Below, one piece after another: positions 7,085 through 40,136 of a stretch of DNA of 40,136 nucleotides (position 1 is its first letter; every line of letters starts with the position of its first letter). Both the position numbers and the translations under genes were made by a program. This stretch comes from Polymyxa betae (lineage: Eukaryota > Endomyxa > Phytomyxea > Plasmodiophorida > Plasmodiophoridae): positions 1 through 40,136 of the forward strand of contig RBZT01000098.1 of assembly GCA_003693705.1 (NCBI GenBank). Direction: 5' to 3'. The notes under the pieces were generated by a model that was not told where the DNA came from, made no database searches, and saw nothing but the letters and a program-made list of their open reading frames with translations.

Positions 7085-7813
7085 GAAACGCTAACTCTCT
7101 TAGAGTGGAACGCGCGATCCTTGAACTTGGCTAAGGCAACAGAGCTGTCACACCTCTACAAGAAAAAACAAATCGACATAATCTGCGTATCGGAGCTGGG
7201 CTCCAGGAGACAAATAACCGGTTTCCAACACTTTGATCATACACCTCGAGACCCACAAAGCGCCATTTTTTGGCGCAACGGGATTTCAGTTAAAATAATC
7301 ACTAAAGAGCTTGGACTGCAAACCACTTCCAGGATTCAGGTTCAAAGCATAGAAATAGAAGACGATATCACATTAATCCACGCATATATAAACCCTGACA
7401 CTACTATAGAAGACAGAACAAGTTTCTGAGACACAATCTATGAGCTAATTCTATACAATAAATTCAAAAAGAAGCTCATGATTACTGGCGACCTCAACAC
7501 ATTAGATTCTCGGTTCGGCATTAACCACCCTAACACATTCCAACATTTAGATGCAATATTATATCCAGCAGGTCCTTTACGAGTAATCAATGATCCCAAA
7601 AGGCTTTTGGGTTTTGGCAAAAGCAAAACTAGAGATGACAACATGCTCGACGTCACACTGGGCAGCAAAAAAGCGAAACACAGCGTCATCGAATGGAAAG
7701 TGCTGCATAAGTTAGATAGCGATCACTTCCTACTACATGCAAACTCAAAATCGAATCCAGCAGTCGCAACTTCCCTAAATGCGACTACCGTAACGAGATA
7801 TACGCAGTTTTGA
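7085..7813 (+). pseudogene. LINE ORF2, AP-endonuclease domain
   Basis: The frame opens with LTLLEWNARSLNLAKATEL and continues IDIICVSELGS (catalytic Glu box), IEDDITLIHAYINP, then a TGA at 7427-7429. It resumes with KKLMITGDLNTLDSRFG (GDxN box), LDVTLGSKK and LDSDHFLLH (SDH box), ending at a stop in 7813. These are the ordered motifs of apurinic-type endonucleases that nick target DNA for target-primed reverse transcription. The hAT insertion begins 36 bp downstream, at 7849. Confidence 0.75.
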
Positions 7814-25429: not shown

Positions 25430-26461
25430 ATGTTGAAGGGAGTTCTTCTGGTATCTGCAGTCATTGTGATTGCTCTGAGCACGGCCTCTGCCCGTACTGA
25501 CAACGGTATGTACAAACCCTAACCCTAACCCTACGGCTATTCCTTATACATCTACAGATGTGAATTCGGTCAGCACAGATGGATACGACTGGGAAGCGCA
25601 GACAACCTCACCCATTGAAGGAGAGCCTTCAGCCGCTCCAACAGAGGGAATTGGATCCTCTCCTCACGAGATTCTGGAGGCTGTCCTCTGCCATGCCCAG
25701 CCTGACCCAGCTCTAGAGGCAAAGCTCGCGGTGGTTAACAAGGCCCATTTCAGCATGGTCAAGGACAACCTCCGCCAGGAGCTCAAGCAGCGCCTGAGCC
25801 GGATCGTTCTCGAGCTCCCTTCGTCCCGAGACAGCTTCGTCCGCGACATCAAATGGCTGGTGGCGGCATGCAAAGATGCACCGCGGAATGTTTCCGTCCT
25901 GAGCGATCTGCTGACGGATGAGACGGCATCGCTGCTCCTGCATCGGCTGCTGTTGATCGTCGACGACGAACCCGACCTGGTCGTGGACCTGTTCGACGTC
26001 ATCGGGCCCATCAAATCCGTGGCCGAACTGACGCCCGGCTGGGTCGTCATCCTCCACGATCACCATTGGCTGCTCGTAAGCGATGACAGCAAGAAACGGA
26101 TGTGTCATCAAATCCTGAGCAAGACGCCCATCACCGACGCCTCTCCCTCAGCGACATTCCCGGCGCTATTCTCGACACAATCCTCCAGTACGAAGGCCGG
26201 ACTCCGGACAACCTTTCGATCCGGCGACGGCTGCCGGGCCCGTTCGCAGCAATCAAAAACGGGTCAGAATTCCGTGTCGCCAACAGCATCACCGTCCAGC
26301 ATGCGCCCCTGATCCGATCGCGGCCCGTACTGGCCCGAACGCTGTTCTTCCTCGGGACGCCCCTCCAACTGGACCTGATGTGGATCGCGGCGTTCACGGC
26401 CTCCGACCTGGAAACCCTGCTGCCGTTCGTCCTGTCGGTCGTATGCTGTGGCAGGTTCTGA
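25430..26461 (+). CDS. secreted protein of unknown function, about 309 aa (three exons)
   Basis: ATG 25430 opens MLKGVLLVSAVIVIALSTAS, a clear signal peptide (cleavage after ASA). Exon 1 ends at 25505 in phase 1. Intron 1 (25506-25557, 52 nt, GTATGT..CTACAG) contains three CCCTAA units. Exon 2 (25558-26101) encodes a Ser/Thr-rich linker and then a Leu-rich, mostly helical region (HEILEAVLCHAQPDPALEAK, KSVAELTPGWVVILHDHHWL). A 50-nt intron (26102-26151) restores frame in phase 2 to exon 3 (DIPGAILDTILQYEGRTPDN.., LARTFFLGTPLQLD-like block), ending at TGA 26459-26461. Without that intron the frame turns low-complexity. The family is unknown. A last exon ending near 26543 is possible. Confidence 0.6.
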
Positions 26462-27850: not shown

Positions 27851-27861
27851 TTAGGGTTAGG

Positions 27862-28022
27862 GTTTTACATTTATCACCACTCACTCTTCTGTATTTCCTC
27901 TCATATTAAAGCATTCTCATCCACATGTTTGACTGGTTTATCACATCTTTTTGAGTGAGAATGCATAAAACGGTTTATGAGTGGAAATTACAGAAGGAGT
28001 GTGTGATGATAAATGTGAAAAC
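27862..28022. mobile_element. fold-back/MITE-like element, 161 bp
   Basis: The two halves are imperfect inverted repeats. The left arm reads GTTTTACATTTATCACCACT then CACTCTTCTGTATTTCC..CATTCTCA. The right arm, reverse-complemented, reads GTTTTCACATTTATCATCAC then ..TTCTGTAATTTCC..CATTCTCA. This makes a long hairpin of about 60 bp per arm with no coding capacity. It abuts TTAGGGTTAGGG at 27851-27862. No clear target duplication is seen. Confidence 0.6.
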
Positions 28023-28445: not shown

Positions 28446-28517
28446 TCCGAAATAGTATAGTGGTTTAGTATTCGCCCCTGTCACGGGTGGGACCGTTGTT
28501 CAATCCCCGTTTCGGAG
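28446..28517 (+). tRNA. tRNA-Asp (GTC)
   Basis: The acceptor stem TCCGAAA/TTTCGGA pairs perfectly (28446-28452 with 28510-28516). The anticodon arm CGCCC-CTGTCAC-GGGTG gives anticodon GTC. A TAGTATAGTGG A-box-like element is present. A T run at 28519-28527 is a Pol III terminator. The T stem is poor (CGTTG opposite CCCCG, two mismatches), so it could be a weak or recently decaying gene. All other parts look functional. Confidence 0.75.
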
Positions 28518-31002: not shown

Positions 31003-32304
31003 CTATGATTGGATATTACATGCGGATCCGCTCCAGCCTGATTCACAGATACAGGCTCCAGTTCCCGACTTGCCATCGTTGCAATGCCCATGTGGACCAC
31101 ACGGCACCGGACATAAGAGGCATTGCTTGCCCCAGTATCCAGACGCACACACCGAACAATCGGGGTTAGCATAACCATCATCGCATCGCGTACACTGTCC
31201 CGATCCGCTGTATCCGTCGTCGCATCGCATTCGCGCATTCGTACACGCGGGACACGGCTGACAATCGGAGCCGTACAGGCCGCTGACGCATTGGTCGCAG
31301 TGGAGGCCGTACTGGCCGGCGTGCGGGCATCCGCCGATCGGGCACTGCGTATTGCAAGTGGCCATGAAGCCGGCCACCGCGCAGAACGATTCCTGGATGG
31401 GTGAATGTCTCATGACCATCGCGCTGATGCCATACGCCCTTAAGCTCGAGCTCGTATCGTTCAGCCAGGATTTCAATCCGGCGTAGACTGAATCGAGATC
31501 GGCGACGTTCACGAACTCGACGGTGACCACCTGATTGTCGGCGCTGCTGCTGCCGACCACGCTGGTTGTCACATCCGGGAATCTTCTATTTAGCAGGACC
31601 TGGACCTGATCTCCTGATATGAAGCTGGTGCTGTGAAAATCCACCTGCCGATCGATATTCGGCGTCGTGTTGGAGATCGTGGGGTTCCATATCACCAGGA
31701 TTATGACAACAACGACAACGACGCCGGCCAAGATCAACAGGTTTCTTCTGCGGCGTTCCGAAGCGGTTTTTGGCTTCTTTGCCGGTGATGGCTCGATGTT
31801 TGCTGGAGGCGGGGAGTACGGCATGGAGATCGCATTAATCGAAGGCGGCGACGGTGGGATGATCCGCAGATCATAAGGTCGTGGTGGCCCCACCACCCCC
31901 TCAGGTCGCCCCTGATCCGCCATAGATTGAAATGTAACGAATGGCACGCGTGCCTAACAACATGCCAACCCTAACCCATATCAGGTTGTATCTGAGCCAG
32001 TTCTTGACTTCCACATCTTGACAAAGCGTCCTTCAGGCATCATCTTTGTGCTGTATTCATGATCCGATGCCGGAATGGCCCCGCTAACAAGCCTATTGAA
32101 CTCAGAAATTCTTCTGCTGAGAATCGTTCTCGAGCGATTTAGCGCAGCCCGGAGTCGCAGCCCCCTGCCTGTCTCGCTCGGGTCGGGCTTCTCGTCTTTC
32201 TTTGCAGGTCGCCCGCCGACTCTCATCTTTGTTGTCAGCATGGTGGCGACCAGGTCATTGAAGCGCGCCGAGTCTGCCCGCAAGCTGCAGTCCTCAGAAT
32301 GCAT
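31003..32304 (-). CDS. type II membrane protein with EGF/laminin-like Cys-rich ectodomain, about 410 aa
   Basis: Exon 2 (31953-31003) has a Pro-rich cytosolic part (MADQGRPEGVVGPPRPYDLR..), a basic stop (KKPKTASERRRR), a transmembrane helix (LLILAGVVVVVVIILVIW), then a Cys-rich ectodomain ending in CGPHGHCNDGKSGTGACICE and SGWSGSAC, a classic EGF pattern. Exon 1 (32304-32023; MHSEDCSLRADSARFNDLVA.., basic) joins in phase 0 over a 69-nt intron (32022-31954) that contains GGGTTAGGGTT. If that intron is not real, exon 1 is a separate 107-aa gene ending at 31981 and this protein starts at ATG 31923. It is likely a surface protein. It lies head to head with the signal peptide peptidase gene. Confidence 0.7.
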
Positions 32305-34048
32305 GACCGGCGTCCTGCCCGCTTATGTCCTGATTCTGGCCCTGACCGTCATCCCACACTTCGTCGAAATCCCAGTTGCCGCTCAACTGATCCCGACTTC
32401 ACTTGTACTCTTGTATGCTCTGTTTTTGACTTTCTTCAAAACATTTCTTTCTTTTTTCAGCCTGTTATGCGTGTTATTACCTTTTTGCAATATTTTTGCT
32501 ACAGATTATTAGCTGCAATTACTTTCAAGCACTTTTAAGTGAATTGCAGCTATAATTAGAAGTCAATGCGTTCCTCTCACCAACGCTTTGTATTTCTATT
32601 ATCCCGTTTGTGGCTGTCTCGTTTTTGCGTTTTATTTCAGCTTGAACGTTTACCAGATCGTCTAAGTTTGGTTTAGATATGTTGGGTGCCACATTTCGCT
32701 TCGGAATCTGCATCGAGGTGGCAGTGAAGAAAGTCAGACAATTGGAACGAAGGATGCCTACATGGTTCCCGTCTTCGGCTCGATGGCACTTCTCTCACTT
32801 TACGCCGCTTACAAGTTCTTGCCGCCATACTATCTGAACCTTCTCGTCAACGGCTACTTCTTCCTTGTCGGTGTCATCTCTATGTCATCGAGCATCAAAA
32901 TGTGACTAATTTCTTATGTTCGGCTGTGGTTTCAATCTCGATTCTTACGAATTTTGCTGTCCTTTACCAGCTTGTTGACTTCGGTTCAGATTCAGCGGTT
33001 TCGCTTCTTTGTTATTGGGAATTTTTTCTTTAACTTTGTTATTGCTGTTCTCACCCTAATCGAACCGCTCAGATTGGTTTCGACTTTGCTCTGTCAGGAG
33101 AAGTTCAACTCTTTGAATGCCCCGATTATTCAGTTCCGGTTGCCTGCCATTTTGGCTAAGCTGCTCTGCGAGTCCAATAAGAAAGACGACGATCTGATTC
33201 AGATCTCCAAGCTCGATTTTCCATGTGCCTTTCTTGCATCGATCACCGCTTTCTGGTATATGAAGACAAAGAACCCGATGTCCAACAACTTGTTCGGAAT
33301 TGCTTTTACTATTCAAGCGCTGTCTCTAATCAGCGTTGATTCTTTCATGGCTGGCGCTGCTCTACTCTTGGGTCTATTCTTCTATGATATCTTCTTCGTC
33401 TTTGCCACTGATGTGATGGTATGTCATCATTTGTTTTCTGTTTGTTTGACAATTTTGGCAATGTGCAACTGTTTTATATTACATATACATTGCGTTTGGA
33501 TATCTTCTAGCTGTTCTTCAATCTGCTGTATTACAGTTTTTCATTATTGCAATAAATGCTCTTTGTTTGCAACAGATCAGTTTGTTAGGGTTCCAAGTTT
33601 TGTTTTTGCAAATTCTCCACTTCTTCTTGCACATTTCTAAATGTCTGTTCAGGTTACGGTAGCCACGAAATTTGATGCACCGATCAAGCTTCTGTTCCCG
33701 CGCGGTCTTGGCCAGCGCCCATCAATGTTGGGTCTGGGCGATATCGTCATACCAGGCATCTTCCTATCGCTTATGCTCCGTCTCGATCATCAAATTCATT
33801 GCAAGTCACGTCAGGCCAACACCTTCTCGAAGCCTTACTTCTGGTCATGTATGGGCGGTTATCTTATCGGTATTGCGGTCACGCTTTACATCATGTTCGC
33901 ATTCGAGCATGCCCAGCCGGCTCTTTTGTACCTGGTCCCTGGCTGCCTATTGTCGGTGATAACCTGCGGTCTTGTACGGCGCGAACTCATGACTTTACTC
34001 AAATTCAAAGACAATCCAGAAGTTGAGGATCGCGCGCATCAAGATTAA
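32303..34048 (+). CDS. signal peptide peptidase (intramembrane aspartyl protease)
   Basis: The start is likely ATG 32303 (MTGVLPAYVLILALTVIPHF). A middle exon at about 32730-32898 carries TIGTKDAYMVPVFGSMALLS..YYLNLLVNGYFFLVGV. The penultimate exon ends at 33418 and holds FFYDIFFVFATDVM with the first catalytic Asp (YD). The last exon 33653-34048 begins VTVATKFDAPIKLLFPRGLG and holds SMLGLGDIVIPGIF (GxGD) and QPALLYLVP (PAL), ending EDRAHQD. All three signature motifs of the SPP/presenilin fold are present in order with the expected membrane helices. The enzyme cleaves signal-peptide remnants in the ER membrane. Splice sites around 32398-32730 and 32900-33098 are unresolved. There is no C-terminal KKxx. 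Confidence 0.88.
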
Positions 34049-34509
34049 ACCAATCTCTATCTTCAATGTCTTAAATTCTCTCTATACTTGTTGGTCTGGT
34101 GCATTATCTAAATAATATCACCGCTTGGGCTCATGAATGTTTTCAGTGCAAATCCATCAGCGGCATTTTTGGCAATCTGGTTTCACGTGCGTTGAATGAA
34201 GTCGAATAAGACTGGCTGCTTTTTTTTGCTGTTTATCTAATCATAAGCAGAAATCAGGAGGATCCTTGGTGGAGCTTTCAACACATTTTGATTGTTCCTG
34301 GTCAACTTTGTTTGCTTTGTTAAAGCAAGAATTGCCCAAGCTGTGGGCCGCAATTAACAGCTCGAAAGCTTCCAGTGAAGCTATGATGGCAGTATTGTGT
34401 CTGACAACCGGATAGGAGGAACCCACCATCAATTGGAATCGGATCGAATCGATTGGTATGACCCGGCGACTGTCATCTTTATCACAATGTCGCCAACATT
34501 CCAGAAATG
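34049..34509. other. intergenic gap
   Basis: No supported coding frame. AT-rich 3' flank of the protease gene and 5' flank of the tRNA. Confidence 0.35.
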
Positions 34510-34592
34510 TGTTGGTGGCCGAGTTGGTCTAAGGCGCTAGCTTAAGGCGCTAGTTTCGTTCGCGGAGCGCGGGTTCGAATCCCGTCCGACAC
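34510..34592 (+). tRNA. tRNA-Leu (AAG)
   Basis: This is a class II tRNA. The acceptor stem TGTTGGT/TCCGACA has six of seven positions paired. The D arm is GGCCGAGTTGGTCTAAGGC. The anticodon arm CTAGC-TTAAGGC-GCTAG is perfect and gives anticodon AAG. The long variable arm carries a CG-TTCG-CG hairpin, and the T arm is GCGGG-TTCGAAT-CCCGT. A T run follows at 34596-34601. The B box GGTTCGAATCC is intact. Confidence 0.88.
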
Positions 34593-34595
34593 AGT

Positions 34596-36825: not shown

Positions 36826-38834
36826 TTATTCAGAATCCGGTACAATATCGCCTTCTTCAATCTCGTCGTTGTCCTCTGCGGAGGTAGAAGTAACAGCGGA
36901 ATCAGGTCGGACGGCGGTTGATGAAACTTCGACGCTGTCTGTTGCCTGAACGGCATCTATCTCATCATCGCGAATCTCTCCATCTTCGTAAACATCGTTA
37001 TCCGAATGCCAATCCCCATCTCGACTCACAACATATATTTGATCGGTCTACAACATTGAATAAACCCTAAACCCTAACCAATTCGCAATAGTCACGGACC
37101 TGTGGTGGCGACCTTTGCATTTCGTCGTGGTGACCCGACTTGCAATCATGATTGTGATCCGCGGCTTTTACATGATGATCGCCCTAAAATTTCGATCAAA
37201 ACCCTAAACCCTAATTGTCGGCCCCTGTGGTACCAATTGTTGCCTTTCGGCTTCATTATTATCCGTTTTCCAATCATCATTTGAACGCGCGCACTACAAT
37301 ACTCATAAGAACTTGAGCCCTTATAGAAGACCGTCACCGACCTGAGGCAGCCACCATGCCATTTCGGCTTCGTCAACTTCTTCATTCTTCATGGATCCCT
37401 AAGACACAACAGTGAGCTCTAAACCCTAGCCCGACGCATCCACCGACTTGTTGTATCCGAAACTGCCTTTCAAAATCCTCATACGTCGTCATAGCACCAA
37501 ATGGACACTTCGGATACGCTCGACGATGCACCTATGTTTTATGTTGACAACCCTAAACCCTAACCAAAAGGCGCAGATTACCTCACGCTGTAAACGTCGC
37601 AATTCCAATAACTCGTGATCCAGGCTCCAGTGGTAATCGTTGTTCTTCATATAAACTGGATGATGGGCCTACGAAATTCGATTAAAACCCTAAACCCTAG
37701 ACAAGGCAACCGCTACGTGAGTTGGCAGCCGCCGTTTCATTCTTGCAATCTTTCGGAAAGCCAGACTTTGTGTCGGGTCCGATTCCTCCAACAAGTCGTC
37801 ATCGCTTTCTTCGGACTCCGGCTGGGAGTCCGTCGCCGCCTCAAGATCGCTCCAATCCAGGTCCGGGTCCGGATGCGGACTCGACGCCCGCAACGACCGC
37901 TGTTCGTGCGTGAAATCCGGCTGGGCGAACAGCTCATCGAACCCGACGCCGAGATAATTGGGCGAATTCGTCGGAGGTCGTAGATCTGCAAGGAACTCAT
38001 TCAATCTCGTAGTGATTTCCATAGCTGAGGGAGTTGAGAGATGCAGCGGATCTCGGTTACGTCCAGAACCTGAGCGAGCTTCATTTGGAGGATCAACGGG
38101 TGTCTGTTGAAGGAGAGGCGGTGCTGATACACGACGAGCTGGTGTATCCGGCACGGCCGGGAACAATCGCGAAAACGACTCGGTGAGAGACGGGCTTGGC
38201 GGTGACCGCGGCCCATCCAATTGTGCCTCCGCCTGGCTATCCGGACTGTAATACGGCGAACTATCCCACTCATCATCAGCGCCATCCGAAGGTGTGATCG
38301 TCAGGGTGATATTCGGATCGGGGTGCGGCGGGAATCCGCTACAGTAGCACCGGGCTCGAGGGATAAGATCCGACAAGCTGTCCCATAGAATGCCGAGATC
38401 GCCATACAGATTGACATTGCAAGGCGAGTCTTCGGAGTCCCAACCGCGGCGAGCTGGTGGAGAATCGGAGTAGATTGGAGGCGGAGTTAAGGGCGGCAGA
38501 GTCGAACTTGAAGAGCGCGAAGATGATATTGAGAATGATGGGTCCGAGCGCGGGCTTGCGAGCGCATGCGGTGGGCTTGGCGCGGAAATAGGGCTGCGAG
38601 AGCGGGAGTTGCGTTCGGCTTGAGCGTCCCAGCAAACGAACGACGACCCATTCTCATCGAGATCAGAGATGTCGCTCATGAAGAAATCGTTCTGAGCAAA
38701 TATCTTCTGTAACGGCGTCTCATAATCAATGACGAGTTGTTCGACGACTTCGGACGGCGACTGGGACGTCTCGATCCTGGTCTTGCCAGTTTGCACTTTG
38801 TAGCAACTCCAAATCGTTGCTGAGCTCACGCCAT
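36826..38834 (-). CDS. disordered acidic/proline-rich protein, 552 aa, with telomere-motif introns
   Basis: Exon 1 codes only MA (38834-38830). A 53-nt intron joins exon 2 (38776-37717; AIETSQSPSEVVEQLVIDYE.., then Ser/Pro/Asp-rich disordered sequence with LDWSDLEAATDSQPESEESD near its end). Six further exons follow, all in phase 0: 37668-37582, 37531-37448, 37398-37342, 37293-37234, 37183-37100 and 37047-36826. They give HHPVYMKNNDYHWSLDHELL, YPKCPFGAMTTYEDFERQFR, MKNEEVDEAEMAWWLPQ, NDDWKTDNNEAERQQL, DHHVKAADHNHDCKSGHHDE and the acidic tail DGDWHSDNDVYEDGEIRDDE. Without splicing, exon 2 would end at a TAG inside the telomere-like block at 37690-37692. No family is recognised. A regulatory or scaffold role is only a guess from composition. 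Confidence 0.7.
37048..37099 (-). repeat. intron with TTAGGGTTTAGGG (52 nt)
   Basis: GTCCGT..TTGTAG, phase 0. The TAGGGTTTAGGG block ends 17 nt before the 3' splice site. Confidence 0.65.
37184..37233 (-). repeat. intron with TTAGGGTTTAGGG (50 nt)
   Basis: GTACCA..TTTTAG, phase 0. The block ends 18 nt before the 3' splice site. Its 3' part, GGGTTTTGATCGAA, closely matches the intron at 37669-37716. Confidence 0.65.
37294..37341 (-). repeat. intron with degenerate motif (48 nt)
   Basis: GTCGGT..TTGTAG, phase 0. TAAGGGCTCAAG occupies the same position as the motif in its sister introns. Confidence 0.5.
37399..37447 (-). repeat. intron with CTAGGGTTTAGAG (49 nt)
   Basis: GTCGGT..TCTTAG, phase 0. 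The block ends 18 nt before the 3' splice site. Confidence 0.6.
37532..37581 (-). repeat. intron with TTAGGGTTTAGGG (50 nt)
   Basis: GTAATC..ACATAG, phase 0. The block ends 19 nt before the 3' splice site. Confidence 0.65.
37669..37716 (-). repeat. intron with CTAGGGTTTAGGG (48 nt)
   Basis: GTAGCG..TCGTAG, phase 0. The block ends 19 nt before the 3' splice site. The unspliced frame meets TAG inside the block. Confidence 0.65.
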
Positions 38835-38839
38835 ATCAG

Positions 38840-39509
38840 ATTGTGTGCCGACTAGCAGACTGCCTTCAGCTCTTGCAATCTCAGGTCCTTACTATTTTTG
38901 AGAAGTGCTCTATTGAGCCATGATCGTGCCAGTTGGCACTCTTCAGCAGATGAGAAGTTCAATCCCCGTTGACGTTTCTGAGACATTTCTGCTAGCAATA
39001 ATGATTTGCCGTCGCAACGGAAAACCCACTCGTTTTCCAGTCCTACCCTCGCAGTTTACAGATAGCTGTAAAAATTTTACCGTTTTCCGTCATGGGGTGG
39101 AACCAAAAATCTGTATTTTTTACTGAAAATTACAGTTACCGCGGCATTTTCGGTCCGCTGGTTAGCATGTCGCTCGGTGTTATCAAAATGTCCGTAATAT
39201 TTGTCCGTAAATCTCGCTGTTTTCGCAATTGCCGCCAATCTGAATTTGGGAATCAAAATCTGAATTTGGGAATCTACCGTAGCGATTGCTGTTTGATAGT
39301 GCTAATCGCTCCCTCTACTGCCAAGCAAAGACATCAGCGATTTCGCACACAAGTTTGACCTGCAATGTTGTTATGGACTACGTCTATGTTATGACCCCGA
39401 ACAAATGTGTAATGTTTCATCAGGCTAAAAAATTAGGCAAAATTCAACATCGCACACTGTAAGCAGCAATAGACAAATCCCAACATCGACATAATCCAAC
39501 AGTCATCGT
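38840..39509. other. gap upstream of the minus-strand gene
   Basis: Short plus-strand frames (38920-39126, MIVPVGTLQQMRSSIPVDVS..) have no recognisable family. ATCTGAATTTGGGAATC occurs twice in tandem near 39238-39274. The promoter of the 36.8-38.8 kb gene should be here, but no motif is evident. Confidence 0.3.
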
Positions 39510-39830: not shown

Positions 39831-40136
39831 ATACTCCTATATGATCATAGTAGGACTCGAATCCTACTACGAATCCTGATGACCGGGTTTTTAGGGTTTT
39901 AGGGTCTGATGGATGGCAACTCGGCCCTATCAGCAGGACCTGTGAGAGTCTCTAATACTCCCCTACTGGTTTCCCAGTATAATATCGTCCTTATATAAGG
40001 CAGCCTTTCTTGTGTGCGCAGGCCAGGTATTTGGCCATGAATGTTTCGTGTGTGTATTAGAGCTTATTGGGAATTTCAAATTCTTCGTATTTCTCTCTCT
40101 GATTCCTGAATCTTTTTCGTTTAATCAGTTTGTGTT
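39831..40136. other. right-end gap with palindrome and telomere-like motif
   Basis: TAGTAGGACTCGAATCCTAC (about 39849) is a near-perfect palindrome. TTTTTAGGGTTTTAGGG lies at about 39889-39905, as in introns elsewhere in the window. It may be in an intron of a gene that runs off the right edge. Confidence 0.35.

Follow-up and report, generated by a model that had tools for sequence, protein, structure and literature searches.

The window, which is the whole stretch of Polymyxa betae DNA that was analysed (40,136 nt), contains on its minus strand a block of short introns and exons that probably represents a diverged tandem array of exon-intron units in one protein-coding gene. The founding intron would have been of ordinary size and probably already contained a short tract of the telomere-like kind seen many times in the genome, with telomerase-linked repair as the presumed source of that tract. 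It would have been copied again and again along with an adjacent exon of about 84 nt, by what we take to be unequal exchange, to give an array in which two copies are 24-30 nt shorter than the others. Because all of the introns are in phase 0 and the repeat exons are multiples of three nucleotides, each duplication would have added about 28 residues with the reading frame unbroken. Each of these elements is known by itself, tandem exon duplication as well as short interstitial telomeric tracts, and here they would be joined in one array.

Introns and repeat units of the block

The features of the predicted gene, in transcript order and in window coordinates, are as follows.

38893..38986, minus strand: possible first exon, whose membership of the gene is uncertain
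38820-38892, minus strand: uncertain 73-nt intron that would join the possible first exon
37717..38819, minus strand: long upstream exon of 1103 nt, open in the frame entering intron 1
37669..37716, minus strand: intron 1, 48 nt, phase 0, with TAGGGTTTAGGG exact at 37688-37699
37582..37668, minus strand: exon between introns 1 and 2 (repeat), 87 nt
37532..37581, minus strand: intron 2, 50 nt, phase 0, with TAGGGTTTAGGG exact at 37551-37562
37448..37531, minus strand: exon between introns 2 and 3, 84 nt, with the weakest individual similarity to other copies
37399..37447, minus strand: intron 3, 49 nt, phase 0, with the one-mismatch motif TAGGGTTTAGAG at 37417-37428
37342..37398, minus strand: exon between introns 3 and 4 (repeat), 57 nt, a shorter copy
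37294..37341, minus strand: intron 4, 48 nt, phase 0, with the degenerate motif TAAGGGCTCAAG at 37312-37323 (placed from the intron end)
37234..37293, minus strand: exon between introns 4 and 5 (repeat), 60 nt, a shorter copy
37184..37233, minus strand: intron 5, 50 nt, phase 0, with TAGGGTTTAGGG exact at 37202-37213
37100..37183, minus strand: exon between introns 5 and 6 (repeat), 84 nt
37048..37099, minus strand: intron 6, 52 nt, phase 0, with TAGGGTTTAGGG exact at 37065-37076
36826..37047, minus strand: last exon, 73 codons and a stop (36826-36828), with an acidic tail; the opening 90 nt were treated as one more repeat copy in the comparisons

All six introns that the sequence-only reading had placed at 37048-37716 on the minus strand were verified as features of the sequence, with GT-AG ends, phase 0 and lengths of 48, 50, 49, 48, 50 and 52 nt in transcript order. 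The motif likewise behaves as described there, being exact in introns 1, 2, 5 and 6, changed at one position in intron 3 and degenerate in intron 4, and ending 17-19 nt before the 3' splice site (19, 19, 18, 18, 18 and 17 nt for introns 1-6); the corresponding donor-to-motif distances are 17, 19, 19, 18, 20 and 23 nt. When one mismatch is allowed, the 12-mer was found five times in the window, compared with 0.06 occurrences expected by chance. The two introns said to have further sequence in common are introns 1 and 5, both of which carry GGGTTTTRATCGAA, and pairwise intron comparison finds that they share sequence to the right of the motif as well. The claim that the introns run into stops if left unspliced stood for introns 1, 4, 5 and 6, each of which has an in-frame stop, and failed for introns 2 and 3, which have none and would instead disrupt reading because their lengths of 50 and 49 nt shift the frame. 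As for the motif being the branch site itself, this was rejected, since the candidate branch in the window introns lies downstream of it.

A length of about 50 nt is nothing unusual for introns in this genome, given that ten introns of TCP1 genes are 46-56 nt long (selected by hand from predictions, with longer or odd ones left out) and that Plasmodiophora brassicae genes are reported to have on average four introns of 60 bp (PMC4471660). The TCP1-gamma protein predicted from the genome (L042) is 86% identical to that of Spongospora subterranea and 83% to that of P. brassicae, the remaining listed matches reaching at most 70%, which marks the genome as that of a plasmodiophorid and probably of neither species. 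Phase 0 is also common, accounting for 61 of the 122 introns predicted by our own gene finder. In one TCP1-type gene (L040, contig C500), a predicted intron ends CCTATTTAGGGTTTGTAG, placing a telomere-like piece exactly at the 3' splice site.

The sequence-only reading had left open a tandem duplication of whole exon-plus-intron blocks in units of 105-137 bp, and it is this possibility that the comparisons favour. Motif-to-motif spacing was measured as 137, 134, 105, 110 and 137 bp, and the units so defined can be aligned over their full period, including exon ends and donors. Aligning whole units brings the exon ends of units 2 to 5 into register, with the GT donor of intron 5 lying about 8 nt upstream of the aligned position that serves as the donor of intron 6. 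When the five repeat exons, together with the initial 90 nt of the last exon, were compared with the motif omitted and all 15 pairs summed, the score was 154.6. Genomic windows gave 108.0 (sd 6.4) and codon shuffles 116.1 (sd 6.1), with 0 of 400 reaching the real score in either case. The 45 nt before the motif scored 116.2 against 88.8 (sd 5.3) for genomic windows (0/1000). Similarity continues through the splice sites on both sides, as measured against an anchored null of segments taken at the splice sites of 67 introns in 30 genes, which our own gene finder had predicted ab initio. The exon end with the intron start scored 122.2 against 93.6 (sd 5.7; 0/2000), the intron end with the exon start 148.2 against 112.1 (sd 6.8; 0/2000), and the two jointly were matched in 0 of 2000 draws. 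A version of this null in which one locus was present twice (L006 overlaps L009) gave 12/500 and 6/500, the outliers coming from that locus.

This similarity between units is weak and mostly collective. Individually, three of the eight exon pairs tested fall below 0.05 (3-4, 4-5 and 5-6), as do five of the 15 pairs of 45-nt pre-motif segments (1-4, 3-4, 4-5, 4-6 and 5-6); unit 2 is the weakest link, with no pair below 0.05 among the exon pairs or pre-motif pairs tested. Outside the motif, units 1, 2, 5 and 6 have a mean identity of 0.48, compared with 0.377 for aligned random windows (the highest of 25 being 0.454). A pairwise intron comparison against simple shuffles missed the likeness to the left of the motif, which appears once exon ends are included. 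Consecutive units are alike over both exon and intron (collectively, and weakly for unit 2), with a single intron phase and exon lengths of 87, 84, 57, 60 and 84 nt, and the likeness of exons, pre-motif segments, splice-site sides and whole units points to old tandem duplication and not to intron insertion.

What plain duplication followed by neutral decay fails to explain is the unchanged 12-mer in four of the units. In units 1, 2, 5 and 6 the motif is identical at 12 of 12 positions compared with 48% mean identity elsewhere, and under a star tree the probability of retaining it neutrally in all four is 5.8e-10, 1.8e-6 or 6.8e-4 at identities of 0.48, 0.61 or 0.75, respectively. Because neutral retention is so improbable, either the tract is constrained or the copies are homogenised there; selection on the 12-mer or recombination between copies centred on it could be responsible, and both are compatible with a tandem array.

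Selection is a reasonable possibility that stops short of being probable, and it would add to the array explanation without excluding it: the array would have arisen by tandem duplication, and the 12-mer would now be under selection either as a DNA element that is bound or, through its two GGG runs, as a splicing aid near weak branch sites. GGG runs can aid the splicing of short introns. Both the contrast in identity and the improbable neutral retention speak for selection, as does the absence of CTAAC from all six introns compared with its presence in three of the ten hand-picked TCP1 introns. Against selection, GGG is infrequent in the ten TCP1 introns (2 occurrences), and a strict need for the motif is countered by introns 3 and 4, which still fit the splice model described below with their decayed motifs, and by other copies of the motif in the genome, which have no fixed position.

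More tentatively, and on balance we think it unlikely, the intronic telomere-like tract may itself be the joint at which the exon was multiplied, with copies recombining or converting at this point so that the 12-mer stays uniform while the rest diverges. In yeast, interstitial telomeric sequences are reported to promote rearrangement, more so when they are longer (PMC11626172). Were the tract such a joint, new coding repeats would have a source in stray telomere DNA within introns, which would seed new repeat proteins in plasmodiophorids.

Reading frame and gene model

To what extent the block reads as a gene was assessed with a splice-model test, in which the motifs were kept fixed and the sequence between them, together with 150 nt of the upstream exon, was shuffled in two-base blocks (n = 3000), to see if GT and YAG sites could be chosen around each motif so that the reading frame stays open. 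Allowed spacings were set around those observed on the minus strand, and as the shuffles scramble the exons too, the open frame and the splice sites are tested jointly. The first motif stopped 2952 of the 3000 shuffles; 45 got past one motif, three got past two and none passed the third, while the real minus strand passes all six motif introns; its score is 6 and not 7 because the test demanded a last exon of 225 nt, which extends past the true stop. A gene on the plus strand was rejected, as that strand passes at most one motif intron under the spacing rules from the minus-strand model. From this structure in the sequence we infer splicing at the six junctions.

The protein that would result is an orphan within the searches made. 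Searches with the 596-residue model gave no Pfam domain at E <= 1 and no homologue at E <= 0.001 among 8000 candidates scored from a database that includes Spongospora and Plasmodiophora proteins, and for its region 385-560 no homologue was found at E <= 1 among 157 candidates scored. The translated exons encode a loose pattern around D-x-x-W-x-x-D-x-E, read by eye. Model residues 1-50 are 52% identical (E 6.3e-5) to an ORF on contig C11 (locus L037), and the DNA upstream of the gene is 77% identical to the same locus over 115 positions. This locus (C11:7125-7268 and flanks) holds a piece of Plant_tran transposase (PF04827, 7.9e-52) beside the small ORF, and a transposon remnant likely lies at the 5' end of the predicted gene.

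We consider it improbable that the block is no gene at all, being instead a non-coding repeat that has degenerated around telomere-like cores and lies close to the remnant of a transposon. The lack of a homologue or Pfam match and the resemblance of the upstream sequence to a transposase-bearing locus would both fit such a repeat, as would the absence of the gene from the window genes called above score 8 by our own codon-based gene finder, which was trained on DNA of the genome and yielded a usable but noisy set of introns. However, a non-coding repeat leaves unexplained why the real sequence passes six introns when no shuffle passes the third, and why every repeat exon has a length divisible by three when the introns vary in length. 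Tandem Repeats Finder reports only short 7-bp periods at the block and no satellite of about 137 bp.

Telomere-like tracts across the genome

Searching the genome (24.4 Mb in 541 contigs), we found short telomere-like tracts dispersed above chance expectation. The T3 motif, which is the exact 12-mer, has 479 matches compared with five for its reversed control, the T4 form 272 compared with four and the T2 form 370 compared with two; the T2/T3/T4AG3 matches number 1121 in all, with overlaps and telomere-like arrays included. On contig C64 (L016), not far from the end, is an array made up of TTTAGGG (6), TTAGGG (6), TTTTAGGG (2) and other forms (4), which we take to be a chromosome end, with a little other sequence following the array. 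The telomere repeat of P. brassicae is reported as TTTTAGGG (PMC6823432). Together, the excess of all three forms over reversed controls and the C64 array bear out the telomere-type nature originally attributed to the motif. Given the mixture of T2, T3 and T4 types, the dispersed tracts look like heterogeneous telomere DNA and not like one fixed binding site, and the fact that the five recognisable motifs of the block are nonetheless all of T3 type is as a single founder would give. Such an excess in a plasmodiophorid genome deserves a proper survey. Within the window itself, further short telomere-like tracts occur at 39892-39904 on the plus strand (TAGGGTTTTAGGG) and at 27852-27862 on the plus and 25523-25533 on the minus strand (both TAGGGTTAGGG).

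Where these tracts lie relative to genes was studied in 97 motif copies, a non-random sample from the first 100 of the 479 places (contigs C1-C131) plus the four in the window, with duplicates and copies in telomere-like arrays removed. At a score of at least 3.5, 14/97 motif copies in sense and 22/97 in antisense orientation fit an intron, compared with 3/50 in each orientation for a stop-matched control (TAG-N4-TAG, only 50 places, with the L006/L009 overlap retained); at 5.5 the two hardly differ (3/97 and 4/97 compared with 1/50 and 1/50). Ten of the 34 spliced candidates printed were tested against Pfam, and four gave matches above the cut-off: PCMT and Cluap1 (sense) and an amino acid permease (antisense), for which the match spans the motif-intron junction, and a protein kinase (antisense), for which it ends two residues past the junction. 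The other six gave nothing above the Pfam cut-off. These matches at candidate junctions indicate that ordinary genes do carry copies of the motif in their introns, some in sense and some in antisense. Averaging the coding potential around motif copies gave a profile too weak to tell promoters and introns apart. In some intron-like segments (L067, L059), an antisense copy puts CCCTAAC at the place expected of a branch site.

The sequence-only reading had favoured a recently multiplied, introner-like family built on telomere-type sequence, and had suggested finding it through the motif at a fixed intron position elsewhere in the genome. On this view, an element that resides in introns and carries telomere-like sequence would have entered the one gene six times. 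Its appeal is clear from the introns themselves, since the motif has the same position in neighbouring introns that are all in phase 0, and introns 1 and 5 are alike to the right of it. A motif at this fixed place was nevertheless rejected as the mark of a general intron family, because the position rule that holds for 4/4 copies in the window holds elsewhere for only 6/93 in sense and 5/93 in antisense orientation, similar to random positions (390/6600; 5.9%). Introners are characterised by similarity confined to the intron. Here, in contrast, collective similarity extends through the exons on both sides, and similar introns are found at this locus and not in many unrelated genes: the longer stretch that introns 1 and 5 have in common was found, at up to three mismatches, in those two introns only, and the 681-bp block has no other genome match at E <= 0.001. 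Nor is 'recent' apt for units that are only about 48% identical outside the motif. Insertion of an introner-like element is thus very unlikely to account for the block, and a tandem exon array can mimic an introner family when introns alone are compared.

Six independent insertions of telomere-like tracts into six pre-existing introns, through telomerase-linked repair, would draw on the genome-wide excess of all three forms and on the tracts that some conserved genes carry in their introns, in either orientation, but we hold this to be just as far-fetched, given that position and orientation are the same in all six introns and type in the five recognisable motifs, that close motif pairs are rare elsewhere, and that the similarity of the units requires duplication anyway. 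Apart from a telomere-like contig (C290), motif pairs 108-138 bp apart occur only in the window (two pairs) and on contigs C127 and C128. The C127 and C128 pairs were rejected as tandem duplicates, their flanks being dissimilar.

Comparison with known systems and other features of the window

As a tandem array of exon-intron units, the block most resembles two systems. The 90-bp exon arrays described in Tetrahymena likewise consist of consecutive exons of similar size with introns nearly all of one phase, and are explained there by clonal expansion with unequal crossing over. They run to tens of thousands of exons spread over many genes, whereas the block reported here is one small, diverged phase-0 array with a telomere-like intron core. 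In the tandem-duplication intron gain described in potato, the duplication crosses an intron-exon boundary and inherits the branch site and the 3' splice site, with the donor coming from formerly exonic sequence, which may be compared with the slid donor of intron 5 here; the potato case is a single recent event, whereas here there are several old copies of an exon-intron unit.

The telomere-like tracts have counterparts of their own. Plant telo boxes are also short telomere-like motifs dispersed in the genome, for whose spread a model of telomerase and recombination is given; they are reported as concentrated in 5' UTRs, while the comparison made here covers intron position alone (PMC3022908). 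Mammalian short interstitial telomeric sequences, to which we liken the tracts, are described as inserted at break repair, with telomerase suspected, and in human none are reported in exons and 31% in introns; the vertebrate sequences are T2AG3 repeats, and no tandem exon array appears in the passages compared (PMC7215372). Introners (PMC9860276) share with the block the occurrence of similar introns at several places, some families having target-site duplications or terminal inverted repeats, and differ from it in that similarity here is neither confined to introns nor dispersed over the genome. Among the literature matches listed, judged by titles and the starts of abstracts, there was no tandem exon array with telomere-like introns.

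The window contains several other features. A signal peptide peptidase domain (PF04258, 9.2e-16) is encoded at 32954-33640 on the plus strand, and an ORF with a teneurin-like EGF domain (PF23106, 7.2e-06) lies at 31003-31947 on the minus strand. Two tRNA genes (Rfam RF00005) are present on the plus strand at 28446-28517 and 34509-34593, possibly with an intron or a long variable arm in the latter, which is 85 nt long. Finally, a domain of Endonuclease-reverse transcriptase type at 7430-7810 on the plus strand, below the cut-off (PF14529, 2.8e-05), is possibly a LINE-like remnant.
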